Origin: Candidatus Eiseniibacteriota bacterium
GTDB taxonomy: Bacteria; Arandabacterota; Arandabacteria; JAGLYR01
Direction of reading: 5' to 3'
Length of the DNA stretch: 10,121 bases
Assembly (NCBI GenBank): GCA_023132135.1
Contig: JAGLYR010000288.1
Span: forward strand, 1 to 10,121
The stretch's first letter is position 1. Each line of letters begins with the position of its first letter. The notes under the pieces are model-generated. The model worked only from the letters and a program-made list of their open reading frames with translations. It ran no database searches and was not told where the DNA came from. This document shows, piece by piece, positions 743 to 10,085 of this stretch. The position numbers and the translations under genes were made by a program.

Positions 743-1279
743 ATGGCTATCCCGGAATCTCCCACCCAGGCCAAACTCCTCATCGCCGTGATGACCCCGG
801 ACCCCCGCTGCTTTGATCTGGCATTGGCTGAGCTCGAGTCGACTCATGGGGCCATCGACGCAACGTCTCCGGAGATCCGGGATCCACACTACCGCCATTA
901 CGAAGATGAGATGGGCCCCGCACTCACCAAAAGGATACTTGCGTTTGAGAAACTGGTCGATCCCGAGCAGCTCGTTTCTGCGAAAACCCACACTAACGCT
1001 ATCGAACTTGCCTTTTCCATCCGCGGTCGAAGAACCGTCAATCTCGACCCGGGGCACCTCACTTCAGGCAACCTGGTGCTGGCTTCCGCCAAATCCCGTT
1101 CGAGGCGCATCTACCTTCGCGATGGAATCTACGCCGAGCTGGAGCTCGTCTACCAATCCGGCGAGTTCAGGCCCATGCCCTGGACATACCCCGACTTCCG
1201 CCGGCCAGAGGTCCTCTCCTTCCTCTCCGAGGTCCGGCAGACGTACCTCGCTCAATTGACTAGCCGGCGTCCCCAATAA
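743..1279 (+). CDS. DUF4416 family protein
   Basis: This 178-residue protein matches the DUF4416 family as I know it. Features include an N-terminal strand (KLLIAVMTPD), a conserved HYRHYEDEMGP segment, KTHTNAIEL, the RRTVNLDPGHLTSGNLVLAS block, RIYLRDGIYAELELVY and a C-terminal PWTYPDFRRPEV. The NLDPG and TYPDF blocks are the strongest family marks. The molecular function of DUF4416 is unknown. There is no signal peptide or transmembrane segment, so it should be cytoplasmic. I chose ATG at 743, 2 nt after the preceding stop codon; an in-frame ATG at 707 would overlap the upstream gene and add 12 residues unlike the family. The Shine-Dalgarno signal is weak (GGGG at 727-730), so translation may be coupled to the upstream gene. 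The last 20 bp overlap the 3' end of the convergent CHAT gene. Confidence 0.82.
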   Translation: MAIPESPTQAKLLIAVMTPDPRCFDLALAELESTHGAIDATSPEIRDPHYRHYEDEMGPALTKRILAFEKLVDPEQLVSAKTHTNAIELAFSIRGRRTVNLDPGHLTSGNLVLASAKSRSRRIYLRDGIYAELELVYQSGEFRPMPWTYPDFRRPEVLSFLSEVRQTYLAQLTSRRPQ

Positions 1280-4139
1280 GCACGAAGCCCGACCAGTAGG
1301 CGGGGTGCCGGAACGGCCGGTCACCATCCTCGTCAGTATAGTTTCGGAGCCAGTGCTTGGCTTCGCGGAGGGCTTCGGCTTTGGGGAGGGGCTCTTCTAT
1401 TCGACCCGCGCGCCGGCCGGCGTAGCTGCCGGTCAGGTTCTCGTAGAAGCGCCCCATGAGGAGTGCCGTCGCTTCATCCTCCACCAGCCACAGGCTCACC
1501 AGGAGACTGCGGGCGCCCGCCTGCAGGAACGCGTAGGCCATGCCGATGTAGCCCTCTCCTCCGGCTTCGCGCCCGAGCGCTGTCTGGCAACCGCTGAGTG
1601 TCACCAAATCCGCATTCAGCGGGAATTCGGCCACGATTTCCTTGACGGTGAGAAGACCATCGTACATTCGGGTGCCCGAGACTGTGGCCTCGACCGGATC
1701 CGGCAGGTTCGCGCAGGAGAGAACCAGTGCCGAACACTCCGGCCGCTCGTCGTCCACAAGGGCATGCGTCGCCAGGTGAATGATGTCGAAATCCGTGAGA
1801 TCTCCCGACGTGGCCAGGAGAACAAGCTGCTGTTCGGATGCGTCCTCCCCCAGAAGAACCGTGGACTTCGAGACCGACGCCGCCACTCTCCGGACCTCTT
1901 CCCCTGTCCACGGGAGACGCTGCAGATCTGCGGGGGGCTTCCCGGCCACCGTCGCCAGATGCGCCCGGGCGAACTGAGGATTGCCCACCAGCAGGGCGTT
2001 ACGATCCGAACCCAATGGCCGCGCGGCCCCCTGTTCCCGCAGCCAGGCGAAGATCGTGGCCGAAGGGGTATAGGATACCGTGTACCGGTCTCCAAGATAC
2101 ACGCCGTGTGAATCCACGAGCGATTCAACGGGTATTCCCAGCAGCGGTCCGGATGGAATCACAACCAGGTTTTCGGATCCGTCAAGGTAGCACTCGAGTG
2201 GAGTGATCCATTCGGACCACAGCTTCCCCGCGTCCGAGGTAATGCGCGCAGTCTCCGTGACACGGAAGGGCCACGACCCGGCCACCCCCAGGCTTCCCCG
2301 GAAGTCGCTCGCTGTCTCGTCCCAGGGAATCTCTCCGGCGCCGACGGACGGTGCGAGATGAACCCACCCAACGGGGCCGGAGTCGCGGATCACATAGCCC
2401 CATGCATCCGGCTCGCACCCCGGGATTTCCACCCACAACCAGCCCACCAACGCGGTCTTTTCCCCGAGCGATCCCTGAACCTGTTCCAGAGAAAAGGTCC
2501 GACCTTCAGCCCGTTGCCCGGAAGCAAAGAGGAGGTCCACCAGCGCTCGCGCCTGGGCTTTCTCTGCCGCCACCCATGCCCGGTCTTTCTGCTCCATGCC
2601 AAGACGCGCCACCGAGAGGTGACAGTAGGGTGATTCCCGGAACGTCGCCCGTGTGAATCCTCCGCCTGCGCGAAGGCGGGCGGTCTCAAAGATCTCGGCC
2701 GCGCCCGAGAGCACCGCCTCTGCCCCTGCGGCATCGCCTCTGGCAAGAAGGCACTCCCCCAACAACCGGAGCGTCTCGCCGACCTGTGGGTGCCGGTCCC
2801 CAAAACGCACGCGGCAGATGGACAACGCTTCCCGGCAAAGGGCTTCCGCCTCCCCATGTTTCCCCATGTCCATGAGAACCACGGCATGGAGGCGGAGCGC
2901 CGGAACCAGCATGGGATGGTCGTCTCCCAGAATTCGCCGGACCATGGCCAAACCGTCCCGATACAGGGAATCCGCCACCGCGTAGTCTTCCTTCTCGCGG
3001 AGGGTAGCGGCAAGGTTGATGAGATTCGTCGCAATCCCGAGATGAGTGCTGCCCAGGCATTTCCTTCTCAGGGCCAGCGCTTCGCGGAAAAGAGCTTCCG
3101 CGGCGTCGTAGTCCTCCTTCTTGGTCTGGATGACGGCCAGAACCCCTATGCTCTTGGCGATCTCCGGATTGTCTGCGCCCAAGAGCCTCCGGCGCGTCTC
3201 GAGAACCTCTATAAGCAGATCCTCCGCCTGGGCGTAGTTGCCCTGCTGTGAGAGAAGGATGGCGAAGTTGTTGAGGAGAGCTGCGGTTTCCGGATGTTCA
3301 TGGCCCAAGGCTTCCCGGTGAATCGCGAGGGCCTTGCGATAGAGCGGTGCAGCGCGCGCCAGATCGCCGCGGCTGTAGTACAGGATCGCGAGGTTGTTCA
3401 GACTCTTACCGACCTTTTCGTCATCCGGTCCGAAGAGCCTGGTTCGCATGGCGAGCGCGTCCCGGATCATGGGCTCGGCCTGGGCCACATTCCCGCGTTT
3501 GTAGAGGACGGTTCCAAGATTGTTGAGGCTCTCCGCTACCTGCGGGTGCTCGGGTTCCAGGGCACTGCGCTGCACATCCAGCGCCCGGCGCAGAACCTCC
3601 CCCGCCTCCCCGAACTCGCCCGTCTCCCGGAGAGCCACACCCAAGGCGTTCAGGGCAACGGCGGTCTCAGGGTGATCCGCTCCCAGGTAACGCTCCCGGA
3701 TCTCCAGCTCCTGCCGGGCCAGCCGGACGCAAGTCGCGTACTCCCTCCTGGAGCCATGGCTGCGAATCTCGAGGTACAGGCTATCTGCCTTCGCGAGATC
3801 TCTCCGGGAAACCGGCGGGAGTTCCACAATCAGACGAAGCGTCGAGATCTGCCGATCGAGATCGCCGACTCTCCATGATTCCCGGGCTCTTTCCCGCCGG
3901 AGCGAGTCCAGCGATTCCTCCGCTGCTCTCAGTGCCTCCGCATACCGCCCCCCTGCGCGCAGCTCCCGGCTTTGCTCCAGATGAGCGTCGGTACCACCCG
4001 CAGTCGCGGCAACCGCTGCAACAGAGATCAGAATCAGTGCAACCAGACAGGTTCGACCGGAGGCGTAGCCGTGGTTCCGCTTAGGATCGAAATCCGCGCC
4101 AGGGCGCAGTCCATATACATCCTGAGACTCTCGCAGCAA
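1260..4139 (-). CDS. Exported TPR-CHAT protein (caspase-like protease domain)
   Basis: A 959-residue protein. Residues 31-47 (CLVALILISVAAVAATA) form a hydrophobic segment with an AxA-type end (A45-T46-A47), so a signal peptide or N-terminal anchor is likely. Eight TPR units follow with equivalent positions at 156, 198, 240, 282, 324, 366, 408 and 450, exactly 42 residues apart, as in kinesin-light-chain-type repeats. The C-terminal third (about 640-957) is a CHAT domain: HLATHA holds the probable catalytic His792, SGCQTA the probable catalytic Cys851, and the GFVLIG end is typical. CHAT domains belong to the caspase-like cysteine peptidase clan, and both dyad residues are present, so activity is plausible. 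The start is TTG at 4139 with AAGGAG (4150-4155) 10 nt upstream. No ATG or GTG occurs in frame before the signal segment, and the first ~29 codons lie within a repeat copy. The gene sits downstream of a sigma/anti-sigma pair. Its substrate is unknown. Confidence 0.88.
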   Translation of the reverse strand: MLRESQDVYGLRPGADFDPKRNHGYASGRTCLVALILISVAAVAATAGGTDAHLEQSRELRAGGRYAEALRAAEESLDSLRRERARESWRVGDLDRQISTLRLIVELPPVSRRDLAKADSLYLEIRSHGSRREYATCVRLARQELEIRERYLGADHPETAVALNALGVALRETGEFGEAGEVLRRALDVQRSALEPEHPQVAESLNNLGTVLYKRGNVAQAEPMIRDALAMRTRLFGPDDEKVGKSLNNLAILYYSRGDLARAAPLYRKALAIHREALGHEHPETAALLNNFAILLSQQGNYAQAEDLLIEVLETRRRLLGADNPEIAKSIGVLAVIQTKKEDYDAAEALFREALALRRKCLGSTHLGIATNLINLAATLREKEDYAVADSLYRDGLAMVRRILGDDHPMLVPALRLHAVVLMDMGKHGEAEALCREALSICRVRFGDRHPQVGETLRLLGECLLARGDAAGAEAVLSGAAEIFETARLRAGGGFTRATFRESPYCHLSVARLGMEQKDRAWVAAEKAQARALVDLLFASGQRAEGRTFSLEQVQGSLGEKTALVGWLWVEIPGCEPDAWGYVIRDSGPVGWVHLAPSVGAGEIPWDETASDFRGSLGVAGSWPFRVTETARITSDAGKLWSEWITPLECYLDGSENLVVIPSGPLLGIPVESLVDSHGVYLGDRYTVSYTPSATIFAWLREQGAARPLGSDRNALLVGNPQFARAHLATVAGKPPADLQRLPWTGEEVRRVAASVSKSTVLLGEDASEQQLVLLATSGDLTDFDIIHLATHALVDDERPECSALVLSCANLPDPVEATVSGTRMYDGLLTVKEIVAEFPLNADLVTLSGCQTALGREAGGEGYIGMAYAFLQAGARSLLVSLWLVEDEATALLMGRFYENLTGSYAGRRAGRIEEPLPKAEALREAKHWLRNYTDEDGDRPFRHPAYWSGFVLIGDAG
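4053..4138. repeat. Direct repeat copy 1, inside the 5' end of the CHAT gene
   Basis: This stretch matches 4243-4328 at about 86% (I count 72 of 84 aligned bases, without gaps). It encodes CHAT residues 2-29, and copy 2 read in the same phase gives a similar peptide (LRPGADFDPK against LRPAGDFDPQ, then GYASGR in both). Similarity stops at the start of the hydrophobic signal segment. Copy 1 keeps only a degraded form of the hairpin seen in copy 2 (TTCGA and TCGAA arms). Confidence 0.85.
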
Positions 4140-4171
4140 TGCTGGCGTTCTCCTTGGATAGTTTGCCGTTA

Positions 4172-4195
4172 TAGCCTGGGTTATTCAGGAATCCC
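4172..4195. repeat. Left 24-bp inverted-repeat arm
   Basis: This is the left arm of the pair; the reverse complement of 4329-4352 differs only at 4188. It lies 16 bp from the Shine-Dalgarno site of the CHAT gene (4150-4155), on the upstream side in transcript terms. In the sigma/anti-sigma/CHAT transcript it could pair with the right arm and close a 133-nt loop. Confidence 0.85.
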
Positions 4196-4237
4196 GTGGC
4201 GAGAGGGGCGCAGGTTGTGACTGGCAAGGCCCGGGGT

Positions 4238-4285
4238 CGATTTCGACCGGACGCGTAGCCAAGGCTCCGCTGAGGATCGAAATCG
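4238..4285. repeat. Hairpin within repeat copy 2
   Basis: CGATTTCGA (4238-4246) and TCGAAATCG (4277-4285) are perfect 9-bp complements. The loop contains a smaller AGCC-AA-GGCT stem (4257-4266), so the whole can fold as a compound stem-loop like bacterial interspersed extragenic repeats. No U-run follows on either strand, so I do not call it an intrinsic terminator. Confidence 0.6.
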
Positions 4286-4328
4286 CCGGCAGGGCGCAGT
4301 CCAGACACAGCCTGAGACCCTCGCAGCA
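4243..4328. repeat. Direct repeat copy 2, intergenic
   Basis: This is the second copy of the unit at 4053-4138, in the same orientation and 190 bp away. It sits in the gap between the anti-sigma and CHAT genes and directly abuts the right inverted-repeat arm. It stays open in the frame that codes in copy 1, but no Shine-Dalgarno site or start precedes it. I therefore treat it as non-coding. Confidence 0.8.
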
Positions 4329-4352
4329 GGGATTCATGAATAACCCAGGCTA
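4329..4352. repeat. Right 24-bp inverted-repeat arm, overlapping the anti-sigma stop codon
   Basis: This arm contains the palindrome ATTCATGAAT (4332-4341). Its last three bases (4350-4352) read TAG on the - strand and terminate the anti-sigma reading frame, so the element boundary and the gene end coincide. Confidence 0.85.
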
Positions 4353-5177
4353 CTGCTCTGCTTGAAGGGAGCGGGCGCGTTCGCCGACCTCGCCCGGTTC
4401 CCCGGCGAGGATCTTCAGCAGGGAATCCGCCCGTGCCCCCCGGCCCGTTTTCCTGAGGGACACATAGAGGGTCCACCGCGCCTCGCCACCCCACGGGTCC
4501 GGGAGCACAGGTTCGGCCACACCCTCCAGCACGGTCACAGCTTCGTGATACCTGCCGTTCCAGGCAAGCGCGCTTCCCAGGTAGATTTTCCGAAGGGTCT
4601 CCAGTGACCCGGAGGTCGTGGTGCTCTCAAGCAGTTCTACGGCGCGCTTGAAATCCTCCGCAGCGTACGCATCCAGCCCCGCCTCGAGCTCCTCGCTGGA
4701 GGCAGCAGCGGAGGAGGCAGCAGCGGAAGCCCGGAAGTGCGTATCCTCAGAAGCAGCAGGCAGTGGGTGCAGAAGCGACGTGTCCGGCCCGGGCCGCAGA
4801 AGGATGACCAGGAGCAGGGCGACTACAGCCACCGGCACGAGCCGCAGACGAGGCCGGCGCATGGACTTCAGGAAACCGCCCCACAAACCGGCCAGGCGTT
4901 CAGCCAAGCCAACGCTGCTTTTCTCCCTTTCAGAGACAGGCTCTACCACCAGATCGCCACCGGGCAGCGTTCGGAGAACGCGCGTCGCACGGAGACGCTC
5001 TCTCTCGGTAACCATCTTCCGAAACGCGGCTTCGCAGGCAGGACAGATGGCCAGATGCGAAAGCACCTTGTCCCTTTCCGCGGTCGGCAGAAGACCATGG
5101 AGCAGGTCCAGGGCGAGATCCTCACTCATATGGGGATCCCGGCTTCCTTTCCCTCCTTCTGTCACCCGCTGGTTCAC
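4350..5177 (-). CDS. Membrane anti-sigma factor, zf-HC2 type with TPR-like outer domain
   Basis: A 275-residue protein with the layout of a zinc-finger anti-sigma factor. A cytoplasmic N-terminal part carries HLAICPAC (H41, C45, C48), the HxxxCxxC signature of the anti-sigma zinc-binding domain. A basic stretch (KSMRRPRLR) and one transmembrane helix (about 111-127) follow; the positive charges point to N-inside, C-outside. An Ala/Ser-rich linker (about 149-161) leads to TPR-like helices (about 162-260), with W206-NGRYHEAV the clearest unit. It should bind and silence the sigma factor encoded just upstream until a signal releases it. GTG at 5177 is chosen for its Shine-Dalgarno site AGGGAG (5185-5190, 7-nt spacer), which touches the sigma stop codon and suggests translational coupling. 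ATG at 5129 (MSEDLALDLL) is a reasonable alternative and looks more like usual family N-termini. The stop codon is supplied by the adjacent inverted repeat. Confidence 0.8.
   Translation of the reverse strand: MNQRVTEGGKGSRDPHMSEDLALDLLHGLLPTAERDKVLSHLAICPACEAAFRKMVTERERLRATRVLRTLPGGDLVVEPVSEREKSSVGLAERLAGLWGGFLKSMRRPRLRLVPVAVVALLLVILLRPGPDTSLLHPLPAASEDTHFRASAAASSAAASSEELEAGLDAYAAEDFKRAVELLESTTTSGSLETLRKIYLGSALAWNGRYHEAVTVLEGVAEPVLPDPWGGEARWTLYVSLRKTGRGARADSLLKILAGEPGEVGERARSLQAEQ
4701..4727. repeat. Short in-gene repeat coding the Ala/Ser linker
   Basis: GGCAGCAGCGGA occurs twice (4701-4712 and 4716-4727) with a 15-bp period, encoding two Ser-Ala-Ala-Ala-Ser units in the linker after the transmembrane helix of the anti-sigma factor. 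It looks like a replication-slippage product in a flexible region. Being exposed and outside the membrane, the linker is also a plausible protease-accessible site. Confidence 0.6.
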
Positions 5178-5189
5178 CGGACTACTCCC

Positions 5190-5978
5190 TCAGATTGAGA
5201 TCGTCTCAAGGCGGAATGCTTTCCAAATCTCCACAAAAACTCCGGGCGGCATGTCCTGGGACTCAAATCCATGCCTGCCCATGCAATCCCGAATCGCGTC
5301 CCGGGTACGCTGGAGAAGGACGTCCACGTGGCCAACCCTGAGACCCACCTCCGGATGCGCCGCGATCTCTCGACTGGACATCGCCAGGAACACCCGTAGG
5401 AACCAGACCAGCCGGGAGCGCGGCTTCAGATCCTCTGCGCAACCGCGCAGAGCGAAGGCGAATTCCCTGCGTTCCACAAGAATGTCCGGCGATTCTGTCA
5501 TCTGCATCGCGCTGTCCTCATCTACTGTGCCCACATCCCACTCGGGACGGCGTTCATCCGCAGGCTCGACCCGGCGTCCCGCCTCCCGCAGAACATCCAC
5601 CAGACCATTTCGGGCCACTTTCGAGAGAAACCCCGTGATATCCGACGGGGAACGACCAGATGTGTCCCACGTACCTAACTCGGCTCTGCGAAGCAGATCT
5701 AACGATTTTTCCGCCGCGATGTCCTCGATATCCTCCTGGGACACCACTCCAATCCGGGTCTCGTGCATGCGTAAGTAGCGGGATATTACGGAGTTAAGGA
5801 GTTCCCACACTTCGCCACGGGCCGCGTCCCGGGCACACTCGTTCGCCGGCGCCCGGAGCTCCTGGCAGAGCTCCACAAGGCGCGTGGGCCATCGCAGGCT
5901 TTCAGAACTCGAGGCGGGCATGAGCGAATGCCAACAGGTTCGGGAAGGGTTCACGACGCCGGCGCGCCATCTCCTCAA
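5190..5978 (-). CDS. ECF-type RNA polymerase sigma factor
   Basis: A 262-residue sigma-70 family protein of the ECF class. Region 2 covers about 55-136: QEDIEDIAAEKSLDLLRR (81-98) and FLSKVARNGLVDVLREAGRR (117-136) match the core-binding and -10-recognition helices. Region 4, a helix-turn-helix for -35 recognition, is at about 185-235 (LKPRSRLVWFLRVFLAMSSR onward). It is longer than the usual ~180-200 residues because of an N-terminal extension and a C-terminal tail. There is no region 1.1 or 3. The start is uncertain: TTG at 5978 has only a weak upstream GAAG, ATG at 5921 (MPASSSESL) lacks a clear ribosome site, and GTG at 5954 lies some 15 nt after AGGAG. The anti-sigma gene follows after 12 bp. 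It presumably directs transcription of a stress or envelope regulon, perhaps including its own operon. Confidence 0.8.
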   Translation of the reverse strand: MRRWRAGVVNPSRTCWHSLMPASSSESLRWPTRLVELCQELRAPANECARDAARGEVWELLNSVISRYLRMHETRIGVVSQEDIEDIAAEKSLDLLRRAELGTWDTSGRSPSDITGFLSKVARNGLVDVLREAGRRVEPADERRPEWDVGTVDEDSAMQMTESPDILVERREFAFALRGCAEDLKPRSRLVWFLRVFLAMSSREIAAHPEVGLRVGHVDVLLQRTRDAIRDCMGRHGFESQDMPPGVFVEIWKAFRLETISI

Positions 5979-6124: not shown

Positions 6125-7267
6125 ATGGCGCTCTTCGAGGAATCGGCAATCGGATCGATGAATCTGCGAAACCGCCTGGTCCGGTCCGCGACGGCGGAGG
6201 GTATGGCTCCCGACACGGGAGAGGTCACCGACGATCTGGTGGGTTTCTACTCCCGGCTTGCCAGGGGTGGCGTGGGTCTCATCATCGGCGGCCACGCCCA
6301 CATCGCGCAGGAAGGCCGGAGTTCCCGGAACCAGGTGGGAATCCATCACGACCGGCTCATCCTGGGATTGAGGAAGCTGGTTCGGGCCTGCCACAACGGC
6401 GGAGCCAAAGTCGTAGCTCAGCTGACCCACGCAGGGTCGCAGACCACCTCTGAGTTCATTGGGGGCAACGATCCCGCCGCACCATCCGCGGTTGAGGACC
6501 CGACCTGTCACACAATGCCAAGAGAGATGACGGAGGAAGACATCGAAGCAGTGATCGGCCAGTTCGCCGCGGCGGCGCGGCGGGCCAGGGATGCCGGGTT
6601 CGACGCCGTACAGCTCCACGGGGCCCACGGCTACCTGCTCTCGCAGTTCCTCTCTCCTCACAGCAATCGCCGAACCGATTCATACGGCGGCACCGTCGAG
6701 AACCGGATCCGCTTCACCACAGAGGTCTTCCGGAAGGTGCGCCAGGCCGTGGGACCGGAGTACCCGGTCCTCATCAAGATGAACGCGCAGGACTATTTCC
6801 CCGGCGGAACGACTCTTGAAGATTCCCTGCCTCTGGCCAGAGCCCTGTCCGATCTGGGGATCAACGGGATTGAAGTCAGCGGAGGTCTCGGCGCCTCGGG
6901 CAGTCTGAACCCGTCCCGGGTCCGGATCAACCACCCAGGCAAGGAAGCCTACTTCCTGGAGGATGCCAGGGAAATCTGGAAGGCCATCTTCCTGGAGGAT
7001 GCCAGGGAAATCCGCAACGCCGTCAAGTGCCCCATTATCCTGGTGGGTGGAATTCGTTCTCTGGACCGGATTCTGGAAATCATCGACGAGGATGTCGTGG
7101 ACTACTTCGCTATGTCGCGGCCACTTATCCGGGAACCGGATCTTCCCAACAACTGGAAAACCGGCATCCGCTCCAACTCGTCCTGCATCTCATGCAACCA
7201 GTGTTTCAAGACTCTGAATGAGGGTGGATTGCACTGCGTGCAGAAGAAGAAAATGCTGGAAACGTAG
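6125..7267 (+). CDS. Old Yellow Enzyme family NADH:flavin oxidoreductase with C-terminal Fe-S cysteines
   Basis: A 380-residue FMN-dependent TIM-barrel protein. Family marks are NRLVRSATAEGMA (16-28), QLTHAG (99-104), HGAHGYLLSQFLSP (165-178; His165, His168 and Tyr170 are the expected substrate and proton-donor residues), NRRTDSYGG (181-189), VGGIRS (307-312) and FAMSRPLIREPDL (328-340). Four cysteines near the end (C354, C357, C360, C371) resemble the [4Fe-4S] site of 2,4-dienoyl-CoA reductases such as FadH. The FAD/NAD(P)H domain that follows in FadH is absent, so electrons must come from a partner or directly from NAD(P)H. Residues 277-300 are an in-frame tandem duplication (FLEDAREIWKAI, FLEDAREIRNAV). 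The start is firm: AGGAGG (6114-6119), 5-nt spacer, ATG. larE begins 28 bp downstream, so it is probably the first gene of the lar operon. The substrate is unknown; an ene-reductase acting on an unsaturated acid or CoA ester is the default reading. Confidence 0.87.
   Translation: MALFEESAIGSMNLRNRLVRSATAEGMAPDTGEVTDDLVGFYSRLARGGVGLIIGGHAHIAQEGRSSRNQVGIHHDRLILGLRKLVRACHNGGAKVVAQLTHAGSQTTSEFIGGNDPAAPSAVEDPTCHTMPREMTEEDIEAVIGQFAAAARRARDAGFDAVQLHGAHGYLLSQFLSPHSNRRTDSYGGTVENRIRFTTEVFRKVRQAVGPEYPVLIKMNAQDYFPGGTTLEDSLPLARALSDLGINGIEVSGGLGASGSLNPSRVRINHPGKEAYFLEDAREIWKAIFLEDAREIRNAVKCPIILVGGIRSLDRILEIIDEDVVDYFAMSRPLIREPDLPNNWKTGIRSNSSCISCNQCFKTLNEGGLHCVQKKKMLET
6953..7024 (+). repeat. 36-bp in-frame tandem duplication within the flavoenzyme gene
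   Basis: Two 36-bp units (6953-6988 and 6989-7024) share an identical 24-bp first part; the last 12 bp match at 8 of 12 positions. The reading frame is kept and 12 residues are added in the helix before the PIILVGGIRS strand. The perfect half suggests a recent event or gene conversion. Confidence 0.85.
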
Positions 7268-7295
7268 AGCATAGTGCCACGTTCACGGAGGAGTG

Positions 7296-8120
7296 ATGAG
7301 TGACGGGAAGCTGGAAATCCTCAGGAATCTGCTCTCCGAGATGGGCAGTGTTCTGGTTGCCTACTCCGGAGGGGTGGACAGTACTTTCCTCCTGAGGGTC
7401 GCCACGGACACCCTCGGCGACCGCGTCGTCGGCGTGACCGCCGTTTCCCCTATCCGCCCGAAAAAGGAGATCGAAGAGGCCCGGGCATTTGCAGAGCAGT
7501 TGGGCGTCCAACACCTGGTGGTTGAGACGGACGAGATGGAAATTCCGGGATTCGCGTCGAACCCGCCCGACCGGTGTTACCTGTGCAAACGGTGGGTTTT
7601 CTCCGCGCTGGTCCAGCTGGCCCGGGAGCAGGGCGTGAACCAGGTGATCGAGGGTTCGATCTGTGACGACACCGCCGACTACCGGCCCGGGATGAAAGCC
7701 ATCTCCGAGCTCGGTATCAGGAGTCCCCTGAGAGAGGCCGGTCTGACAAAGGCCGAGATCCGCGTGATGTCCAGGGAGATGAACCTGCCCACCTGGAACA
7801 AGCCCTCGTCCCCGTGTCTCGTGACGAGGATTCCCTACGGCAGTGAGATCACAATGGACAGACTGGCCCGCATTGAGCGAGCCGAGGAGATCCTGGCCAA
7901 CCTGGGGATTCGCGAATTCAGAGTCAGAGATCACGGCACTGTTGCAAGGGTTGAGGTTGCCGCCGAGGAAATGCACAAGATGCTTGACGATTCGATCCGC
8001 GACCGTGTGGCGGCGGAACTTAAGACCATCGGGTATCTCTATGTCTGCCTGGATATGGAGGGCTACCGGACCGGCGCCATGAATGAATCACTGAGCGAGT
8101 CACAGAAGGAGAACATCTGA
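7296..8120 (+). CDS. larE: LarE, ATP-dependent pyridinium dicarboxylate sulfurtransferase (NPN cofactor)
   Basis: A 274-residue PP-loop protein. LarE adenylates the carboxylates of the LarB product and replaces their oxygen with sulfur, giving the dithiocarboxylate that will bind nickel. The PP-loop SGGVDS is at 24-29. Also visible are the family blocks DRCYLCKR (C94, C97), [13 protein letters not shown] and [17 protein letters not shown]174 in the last block corresponds to the cysteine (C176 in Lactiplantibacillus plantarum) that is sacrificed as sulfur donor in the lactobacillar enzyme. The CxxC pair plus C174 fits the three-cysteine class of LarE, reported to hold a [4Fe-4S] cluster and to work without sacrificing its own cysteine; whether this protein does so is inferred. 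ATG at 7296 is preferred over GTG at 7293, because GGAGG (7287-7291) then has a short but usable spacer. larB starts 2 nt after the stop. Confidence 0.93.
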
Positions 8121-8122
8121 CC

Positions 8123-8878
8123 GTGGACAAAGAACGAATCCGGAAGCTACTGGAGGATGTCCGGTCGGGCGAGGTAGACGTCGGCAAGGCGCTGGACATC
8201 CTCAAGAGTCTTCCCTACGAAGATCTTGGTTTTGCCAAAATCGATACGCACCGGGACCTGCGGACCGGCTTCCCTGAAGCGATCTTCTGCCAGGGGAAAA
8301 CGCTGGATCAGATTAAGGCCATTGTCCAGAGGCACCCGGAAGAGGATCGCTTCCTGATGGCCACCCGGGCGAGCAAGGACGTGTACGAGACGATTCGGGA
8401 AGTACGGCCGGACGCGGTGTACAACGAGCTGGCCCGGATTGTTCTTGTCGGGAGATGCCGGGAGAAGAAAACGGATGGAAGTATCCTGATCATCAGTGCA
8501 GGAACTTCTGATCTGCCGGTCGCCGAGGAGGCAGCTGTTACGGCCGAGGCAACGGGGAACGTGGTGGAAAGACTCTACGACGTCGGCGTGGCCGGCATCC
8601 ATCGATTGCTCGATCACAACAGCCAGATGTCCGCGGCCAACGTTATCATCACCGTGGCGGGGATGGAGGGCGCCCTGGCCAGTATTGTCGGCGGGCTCGT
8701 CCAGTGTCCGGTGATAGCAGTGCCCACCAGCGTGGGCTACGGAGCCAGCTTCCACGGGCTCTCCGCCTTGCTGACCATGCTCAACAGTTGCGCGCCGGGC
8801 GTGGTTGTTGTCAACATAGATAATGGATTCGGGGCCGGTTACGTCGCCGGCATCATCAACCAGCGCTGCGCGCCGTAG
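8123..8878 (+). CDS. larB: LarB, pyridinium-3,5-biscarboxylic acid mononucleotide synthase (NPN cofactor)
   Basis: A 251-residue protein of the usual LarB length. LarB carboxylates C5 of the pyridine ring of nicotinic acid adenine dinucleotide and cleaves the phosphoanhydride, the first step of nickel-pincer cofactor synthesis. The N-terminal half carries KIDTHRDLRTGFPEAIFCQG (39-58), typical of LarB. The C-terminal half is the PurE-like (AIR carboxylase) fold with ISAGTSDLPVAEEAA (124-138), VAGMEGALASIVGGL (178-192), PTSVGYGASFHG (201-212) and NSCAPGVVVVNIDNGFGAG (221-239). C223 lies at the position of the catalytic Cys221 of the L. plantarum enzyme, which forms a covalent adduct with the substrate. 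The start is GTG at 8123 with AAGGAG (8106-8111) inside the end of larE, 11 nt upstream. The enzyme is cytoplasmic. Confidence 0.95.
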   Translation: MDKERIRKLLEDVRSGEVDVGKALDILKSLPYEDLGFAKIDTHRDLRTGFPEAIFCQGKTLDQIKAIVQRHPEEDRFLMATRASKDVYETIREVRPDAVYNELARIVLVGRCREKKTDGSILIISAGTSDLPVAEEAAVTAEATGNVVERLYDVGVAGIHRLLDHNSQMSAANVIITVAGMEGALASIVGGLVQCPVIAVPTSVGYGASFHGLSALLTMLNSCAPGVVVVNIDNGFGAGYVAGIINQRCAP

Positions 8879-8918
8879 GCCAGTGCAACCACGGAACTGA
8901 CTACTGAGGGTGCAATCC

Positions 8919-10085
8919 ATGCGAGTGGCTTACTTCGACTGCTTTTCCGGCGTCTGTGGCAGCATGATCATCGGGGCCCTGCTCGATGCAGGGCTGGACC
9001 TCGAGTGGCTGGAAACCGAGCTCTCCGGGATGAAGATCTCCGGTTACCGCCTGAGGGCGGAGAAGACGCTGAAGAACGGGATCTCCGGCACCGGGTTTCA
9101 TGTGGACGCGGACGAAGGGGTTCCCCACCGGAGCGCGGCCGAGCTTCTGCGAATTGTCGATGAGAGCGATCTCGAGCCGGACGTCAAGGAATCCAGCAAG
9201 TCCATCATGAGCGCAGTGGCCGGGACCGAGGCTAGGATCCACAATCGGGATGTCTCCACAATTCACATGCACGAGGTCGCGGGTATCGATTCCATCATAG
9301 ATGTCGTCGGATCGGTCCTGGCTTTGAAGAAGCTCGGAGTGGAGGCCGTTTACTCCTCTCCCATCCACGTGGGAACCGGTTTCGTTGAGTGCGCCCACGG
9401 CACCCTTCCGGTCCCTGCTCCGGCAACCGTGGCGTTGCTGGAAGGGATCCCGGTGTACTCCAGAGGAATCGATGCGGAACTCGCGACTCCAACCGGAGTC
9501 GCAATTCTCCGGGTCCTCTCTAGGGGATTCGGTCCCTTCCCATCAATGAAGATCGAGCGTACGGGCTACGGCGCCGGCGACCATGAACTTGAGATTCCGA
9601 ACCTTCTCCGCGTTACCATCGGGGAGTCGGCAGACGATGTGTATGAACATGACGATGTCGTCCTTGTGGAGACGAACCTGGACGACATGAATCCCGAATT
9701 CTTCGGCCACGTGTCGGACCTGCTCTGGGAGCGCGGCGCCCTGGACGTCTACACGACACCCATCTACATGAAGAAAAACCGGCCCGCGACGATGTTGAGC
9801 GTTCTCATTTCACCGGACCGGTTGGACGATGTGATCTCCACGCTGGCAATGGAGACAACCACGCTGGGGATGCGCATCAACCATGTCGAGCGGAAGAAGC
9901 TTGCCAGAGAGACCGTGGAAGTTCAGACGAAATGGGGACCGACCCGGGTCAAGGTGGGCCGCGTCGGCGATCGGATTGCAAACGTGGCCCCGGAGTACGA
10001 GGATTGCCGGAGAATTGCCCGCGAGCACGGAGTGGCCCTGAAGGACGTTTACGATGAAGTAATCGCCAACGCCCGCAGGGCGTGA
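8919..10085 (+). CDS. larC: LarC, nickel-insertion protein (CTP-dependent) for the NPN cofactor
   Basis: A 388-residue protein. LarC is the CTP-dependent cyclometallase that inserts nickel into the dithiolated pyridinium mononucleotide, the last cofactor step. The N-terminal domain shows YFDCFSG (5-11), IHMHEVAGIDSIIDVVGS, HGTLPVPAPATVALLEG and ATPTGVAIL. The C-terminal domain shows ETNLDDMNPEFFG, YMKKNRPATMLSVL, ETTTLGMR and PEYEDCRRIA. It is one uninterrupted frame, unlike L. plantarum, where full-length LarC arises by ribosomal frameshifting from larC1 and larC2. Two oddities stand out. The usual SGDM after the DCFSG block reads CGSM (Ser15 for the conserved Asp), and I see no histidine-rich insert of the kind many LarC proteins carry. 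ATG at 8919 is chosen because TGAGGG ends 8 nt upstream; an in-frame GTG at 8910 overlaps that site. It is preceded by a 40-bp gap after larB. Confidence 0.93.
   Translation: MRVAYFDCFSGVCGSMIIGALLDAGLDLEWLETELSGMKISGYRLRAEKTLKNGISGTGFHVDADEGVPHRSAAELLRIVDESDLEPDVKESSKSIMSAVAGTEARIHNRDVSTIHMHEVAGIDSIIDVVGSVLALKKLGVEAVYSSPIHVGTGFVECAHGTLPVPAPATVALLEGIPVYSRGIDAELATPTGVAILRVLSRGFGPFPSMKIERTGYGAGDHELEIPNLLRVTIGESADDVYEHDDVVLVETNLDDMNPEFFGHVSDLLWERGALDVYTTPIYMKKNRPATMLSVLISPDRLDDVISTLAMETTTLGMRINHVERKKLARETVEVQTKWGPTRVKVGRVGDRIANVAPEYEDCRRIAREHGVALKDVYDEVIANARRA

Follow-up and report, generated by a model that had tools for sequence, protein, structure and literature searches.

Among described regulators of extracytoplasmic function (ECF) sigma factors, the transmembrane anti-sigma factor DdvA of Myxococcus xanthus (PDB 8ROT, 8RW5; Bernal-Bernal et al. 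2024, Sci Adv eadp1053) carries a tetratricopeptide repeat (TPR)-CHAT unit in the same polypeptide. The DdvA structure study reportedly placed this unit in the periplasm and called its His-Cys site incomplete, and is said to have suggested that dimer partners cut one another and that RseP acts next. The sigma factor DdvS controls a CBASS/III-B CRISPR island (PMC12288465), and in type III-E CRISPR systems the TPR-CHAT protease Csx29 cleaves Csx30, an inhibitor of an ECF-type sigma factor (PMC10028731). The ECF54 group, whose sigma genes have CHAT, subtilase and carboxypeptidase neighbors, was described without an anti-sigma factor, and proteolytic control was proposed (PMC8999054). We describe here a 10,121-nucleotide stretch (the window; contig JAGLYR010000288.1 of a Candidatus Eiseniibacteriota bacterium) in which three co-oriented genes on the minus strand, between 1260 and 5978, encode an ECF sigma factor, a zinc-finger membrane anti-sigma factor and a TPR-CHAT protein, just as a first-pass annotation made from the sequence alone had described them. 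On balance we take this cluster to be a three-gene, split version of a DdvS/DdvA-type switch, with the CHAT protein as the likely site-1 protease.

The nearest known parallel is DdvS/DdvA and not Csx29. As with DdvS and DdvA, the ECF sigma gene of the window adjoins the gene of a zinc-finger transmembrane anti-sigma factor; unlike DdvA, which is one polypeptide, the TPR-CHAT part is a separate, predicted exported protein of 959 residues, and a small outer TPR domain remains in the anti-sigma factor itself. In a Foldseek search of the PDB with a model of the CHAT protein, DdvA (8RW5) ranked first (E 1.2e-13), although its TM-score of 0.38 is low and the chains as a whole superpose loosely. A CHAT profile run against all PDB sequences likewise had its best match in DdvA (8ROT, 3.3e-12), with both catalytic residues, His and Cys, aligned; the single CHAT domain of the window gave no direct match to PDB sequences, and the 23-member profile was needed to reach DdvA. 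The first-pass annotation had drawn the parallel to type III-E CRISPR, a correct comparison, but DdvA is closer by fold and by CHAT profile. It had also held that a chromosomal, envelope-based version would be a different system; since DdvA is a transmembrane anti-sigma factor with TPR-CHAT, such a system is already known in one-piece form. Two things set the present system apart from DdvA: it is divided between a predicted exported protein and a membrane protein, and it is taxonomically broad.

The other described systems share less with the window. The Csx29-Csx30-CASP-sigma system has the same ingredients (a TPR-CHAT protease, an ECF-type sigma factor and its inhibitor), but Csx29 is cytoplasmic and RNA-guided by Cas7-11, whereas in the window the part of the inhibitor is taken by a membrane zinc-finger anti-sigma factor and the CHAT protein is predicted to be exported. 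No CRISPR component had been noticed in the window, and the genome as a whole, which is 96% complete, gave no PF03787 match to a RAMP (Cas7-11) protein where control genomes gave matches. As in ECF54, the CHAT gene adjoins an ECF sigma gene; unlike ECF54, the window also encodes an anti-sigma factor, a membrane protein. A membrane anti-sigma factor with an outer domain, and RseP encoded in the same genome, recall RseA/DegS/RseP and RsiW-type proteolysis, except that site 1 would here be cut by a cysteine protease of the CHAT family and not by PrsW, signal peptidase or a serine protease with a PDZ domain.

The three-gene cluster

The features of the cluster are as follows, in the order of transcription.

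5190 to 5921, minus strand: ECF sigma factor gene (TIGR02937, TIGR02943; orthologue starts; 56% identity to the orthologue at locus L130)
4350 to 5177, minus strand: gene for the membrane zinc-finger anti-sigma factor, 275 residues (zf-HC2 match; H/C/C ligands; AlphaFold2 model)
4794 to 4850, minus strand: membrane helix predicted in the anti-sigma factor, near residues 110-128 (hydropathy peak of 2.92 at residue 111)
4731 to 4760, minus strand: juxtamembrane motif P140-x8-R149 in the outer linker (invariant in six orthologues)
4353 to 4706, minus strand: outer TPR domain, residues 158-275 of the anti-sigma factor (AlphaFold2 model; conservation)
4172 to 4352, no strand assigned: 181-bp interspersed repeat with 24-nt inverted ends, a full copy inserted where the anti-sigma gene ends
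4052 to 4138, no strand assigned: partial repeat copy giving the 5' end of the CHAT open reading frame (ORF), 86% identical to 4242-4328
1260 to 4139, minus strand: gene for the TPR-CHAT protein, 959 residues (domain matches, model and PDB folds)
3993 to 4139, minus strand: signal-peptide region with hydrophobic core at residues 31-47 (hydropathy 2.64)
2667 to 3989, minus strand: TPR superhelix, residues 51-491 (hairpins in the model; kinesin light chain TPR match, 1.6e-36)
1269 to 2468, minus strand: CHAT domain, residues 558-957 (PF12770; overlay on Csx29)
1764 to 1766, minus strand: codon of catalytic His792 (alignment)
1587 to 1589, minus strand: codon of catalytic Cys851 (alignment)

The sigma ORF is open up to a TTG at 5978, and an ATG at 5921 gives a form of 243 residues; the latter is probably the start, because the orthologues at L130, L090 and L100 begin at the matching place, near a WPTRL motif (L and G numbers are our labels for loci and genomes). 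Against NCBIfam the sigma factor matches TIGR02937 (sigma70-ECF) at 2.7e-10 and TIGR02943 at 6e-12, and the 243-residue form matches them at 2e-10, which is 2 bits below the curated cut-off, and 5e-12; there was no match in Pfam. Relatives of this sigma factor were not found in genome contigs with degenerate patterns, which miss when drawn from a single divergent sequence, and a simple and underpowered spaced-word search found no promoter-like motif common to the regions upstream of orthologous sigma genes.

The anti-sigma factor consists of a zinc-finger anti-sigma domain (zf-HC2, 9.6e-5, above cut-off), one membrane helix, a linker and a small outer TPR domain. Its putative zinc ligands, H41-x3-C45-x2-C48, fall in near-invariant columns among 37 homologues. 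The TPR-like helices that the first-pass annotation saw in the outer part are present in the AlphaFold2 model, where residues 155-275 fold as TPR and the domain has a predicted local distance difference test (pLDDT) score mostly of 89-96 and overlays the TPR domain of YbgF (Z 14.1, root-mean-square deviation (rmsd) 2.3 over 116). Among six orthologues this outer domain is the best-conserved segment, with a mean majority fraction of 0.63 compared to 0.52 in the linker. P140 and R149 are found at fixed spacing in all six while the remaining linker is variable, and this short region is a candidate for site-1 cleavage.

The TPR-CHAT protein is, by its domain and its catalytic dyad, a member of the CHAT protease family; it matches PF12770 (CHAT) at 2.5e-63 and TPR_12 at 3e-94, its TPRs being of the kinesin light chain type, and the His792/Cys851 dyad had been correctly identified and numbered from the start. 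An AlphaFold2 model of residues 50-959 has a mean pLDDT of 82, and its top PDB folds are DdvA, separase and Csx29; the model overlays separases with a Z of about 21.5 and an rmsd of 3.5, and the CHAT domain overlays Csx29 (8EEX) with a Z of 25.4 and an rmsd of 3.4 over 351 residues. Export of the protein, as first proposed, stands as a prediction from sequence, and is indicated because residues 31-47 form a hydrophobic segment compatible with a Sec signal and because the orthologues start with ordinary signal peptides.

The 300 bp from the anti-sigma stop codon to the CHAT signal peptide is repeat sequence, made up of one full and one partial copy of an element with 67 matches genome-wide, many of them at contig ends. 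The sole in-frame start for the CHAT gene is a TTG at 4139, preceded by AAGGAG, which abuts the partial copy, and the first 29 or so residues of the protein are therefore repeat-derived. Genes are packed more tightly in the orthologous loci L090 and L130, and the repeat may weaken co-transcription in the window. Copies of the repeat have a common reading frame, LRPxxDFDPxRxxGYASGR.

Linkage and compartments in other genomes

Loci were taken from 290 genomes, from named contigs and from further phyla by CHAT score and not by their neighbors, and sigma, zinc-finger and CHAT genes were called with profiles built in this analysis; because linked genes served as seeds for the sigma profile, a slight detection bias is possible. 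Among the paired genes, TIGR02937 matches 37 of 37 sigma factors, including that of the window, and zf-HC2 matches 30 of 37 anti-sigma factors. In the main sample a sigma gene lies within 3 kb of 69 of the 200 CHAT ORFs, and there are 69 sigma genes in the 777 kb within 2.5 kb of a CHAT gene compared with nine in the 1,048 kb further off, a 10.3-fold enrichment (p 3.5e-17). A second, later sample has 22 of 43 CHAT ORFs linked, with 22 sigma genes in 173 kb near and two in 198 kb far. Taking both samples, an ECF sigma gene lies within 3 kb of 91 of 243 CHAT ORFs, and sigma genes are enriched 10- to 13-fold, about 11 times overall. Linkage is seen in Eisenbacteria, Latescibacterota, Acidobacteriota, Bacteroidota and others, and the CHAT gene may be downstream of, upstream of, divergent from or convergent with the sigma/anti-sigma pair. 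In the genome of the window all five CHAT genes adjoin such a pair, at four loci of differing arrangement; at one of these (L016, 6504-13339) two tandem TPR-CHAT genes are convergent with a single pair.

Close members of all three families recur together at no fewer than five further loci, namely L090, L130, L137, L100 and L173, of which L130 and L137 are from Candidatus Eisenbacteria. L090 has a second sigma/anti-sigma/CHAT set in tandem, the sigma end of the L137 cassette is absent from its contig, and at L173 the CHAT gene is divergent and the anti-sigma factor has lost its zinc ligands. This orthologous L173 protein (204-1010) is without the zinc-binding cysteines and keeps the outer TPR domain. 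The conserved adjacency that the first-pass annotation had named as a check is borne out by enrichment in two samples and by a recurring cassette.

A DdvA-like fused form does not occur in the window, but zinc finger, transmembrane segment, TPR and CHAT are joined in one protein encoded directly after a sigma gene at L053, in the same class as the window genome, and at L179, in another phylum. At L065 an L053-like anti-sigma/TPR-CHAT frame is broken by a single in-frame stop at 3041-3042.

The predicted compartments of the two proteins also correspond. With compartments called from hydropathy and N-termini read by eye, the main sample has 21 pairs of an exported CHAT protein with a membrane anti-sigma factor and 16 pairs of a cytosolic CHAT protein with a soluble one, with no exceptions, and among 40 new loci fetched after the prediction had been written all 14 scorable pairs agree (11 exported, three cytosolic). 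In all 51 pairs that could be scored, the CHAT protein and the C-terminal part of the anti-sigma factor are therefore predicted to share a side of the membrane, as had been supposed for the window. This count excludes L259, where the CHAT N-terminus runs off the contig, and L065 with its interrupted frame; it keeps L248, although the contig end cuts its anti-sigma gene, and scores L083 as exported from a signal-like stretch in a neighboring frame (a probable frameshift). Both types are found, each correctly matched, within the single genomes G000, G214, G143 and G201.

Some cytosolic loci have ECF54-like neighbors: a subtilase is encoded at L113 and L117, and the soluble zinc-finger protein at L084 and L201 has a weak CarboxypepD_reg match. 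Because such a protein is found in loci similar to those of ECF54, the anti-sigma factor missing from ECF54 may have been overlooked. At L084, L113, L117 and L201 the soluble anti-sigma factor has a beta-domain and a zinc finger of variant form, Hx4CxxC. The cytosolic CHAT proteins at L204 (4387-7626) and L211 (4713-7631), which adjoin sigma and soluble anti-sigma genes, appear by eye to have a class III nucleotidyl cyclase domain at the N-terminus and a membrane-anchored part at the C-terminus.

The examined cassettes have no defense genes beside them, which may set them apart from DdvS with its CBASS/III-B island. Among 96 neighbor proteins PADLOC found no defense system beside the linked loci, only subtilases and one viperin-like match, but targets may lie elsewhere. 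A defense-island hypothesis thus had no support among these neighbors.

How the CHAT protein may act

Functional coupling of the CHAT protein and the anti-sigma factor is, in our judgment, quite likely, and we lean, with less assurance, toward cleavage of the anti-sigma factor as the mechanism. The zinc-finger domain would retain the ECF sigma factor at the cytoplasmic face of the membrane, and the large TPR coil of the exported CHAT protein may sense an envelope signal or protein. We infer that the CHAT protein would work outside the membrane in contact with the outer TPR domain of the anti-sigma factor, that its activated site would most likely make the site-1 cut in the part of the linker immediately beyond the membrane, and that RseP would then cut within the membrane (site 2) and so free the sigma factor. 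Cleavage is plausible because the dyad is kept, the CHAT model overlays both Csx29 and separases, and RseP is encoded in the genome. Both His and Cys are retained in 65 of 69 sigma-linked CHAT proteins, so the dyad is not commonly lost; common loss was one of the outcomes that the first-pass annotation had named as refuting its model.

Several observations weigh against this reading. The four sigma-linked CHAT proteins that depart from the dyad (L083, L096, L178 and L179, from one phylum and one clade) have His replaced by Tyr, and L179 combines this replacement with fusion to the anti-sigma factor; as the clade keeps both linkage and fusion, catalysis is not always needed and a non-proteolytic role is possible. 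The invariant Pro and Arg of the linker could be structural, and the comparison that revealed them covers six orthologues, which is few. The compartment trait changes about three times on the sigma and CHAT trees, giving one to three independent contrasts in the main sample. With so few, a sign test cannot reach significance; we rejected the compartment match as formal statistical proof and so regard it as consistent evidence. Finally, no sigma gene lies within 3 kb of 152 of the 243 CHAT ORFs, which means that TPR-CHAT proteins also serve other roles.

Including this clade, six CHAT proteins of one phylum have the His replaced and the Cys kept, with Tyr at L083, L096, L177, L178 and L179 and Phe at L184; four of the six are sigma-linked.

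The alternative that survives best, possible if rather unlikely, is that the exported TPR-CHAT protein is a co-sensor that does not cut, binding the outer TPR domain of the anti-sigma factor and either shifting it between holding and releasing states or shielding it from another site-1 protease. This would suit the His-to-Tyr clade, fusion included, and the outer TPR domain is the most conserved part of the anti-sigma factor, as would be expected of a docking face. Set against it are the related Csx29, an active protease that acts on a sigma inhibitor (PMC10028731), and the intact dyad in the great majority of linked genes, those of the window, L090 and L130 among them.

An output role, in which the sigma factor turns on the operon that encodes it while the exported CHAT protease acts on other envelope targets under stress, seems to us unlikely. 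ECF factors commonly activate their own operon, and the CHAT gene is the last of the window cluster, where ECF targets often sit; but a mere target gene would need neither the fusions to the anti-sigma factor nor the matching of compartments, and the CHAT gene takes every orientation relative to the pair. It is more doubtful still, and in our view very improbable, that the signal enters elsewhere, with a DegS-like protease or signal peptidase cutting the anti-sigma factor and the CHAT protein clearing the fragment or tuning the response: DegS and signal peptidase are site-1 proteases in other systems (PMC10028731; PMC8844934), but the conserved cassette contains no such gene. That the neighborhood reflects only chance or shared lineage is scarcely credible, for although most CHAT genes are unlinked, it would have to account for the enrichment in both samples with its p-value in the first, the linkage of every one of the five CHAT genes in a single genome, the recurrence of the cassette and the anti-sigma/TPR-CHAT fusions.

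Neighboring genes and wider meaning

Elsewhere in the window, a short QueG-like 4Fe-4S protein is encoded together with an overlapping DUF4416 gene that follows it (39-1279). A flavin oxidoreductase gene contains an in-frame 36-bp tandem duplication (6947-7018; 86% identical) that doubles 12 residues (xFLEDAREIxxA). The nickel-pincer cofactor genes larE, larB and larC lie in a row on the plus strand (7293-10085), and there is no larA in the window.

Genes for bacterial CHAT proteins, which are caspase- and separase-like, are widespread, and few have a known substrate. The linkage, the fusions and the compartment match point to a neighboring anti-sigma factor as the likely partner of many of them, and this can be tested with purified proteins. 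We suggest tentatively, and with more doubt than for the window cluster itself, that pairs of CHAT protein and anti-sigma factor form a large and largely undescribed class of sigma switch, in which the CHAT protein is always in the compartment of the anti-sigma C-terminal part (exported with membrane anti-sigma factors, cytosolic with soluble ones) and acts as a signal-dependent site-1 protease, and of which the fused DdvA and the RNA-guided Csx29/Csx30 would be specialized offshoots of an older chromosomal switch. If this is true, a caspase-like enzyme would join the site-1 proteases, and Craspase and DdvA would become members of a wider family of chromosomal sigma switches.
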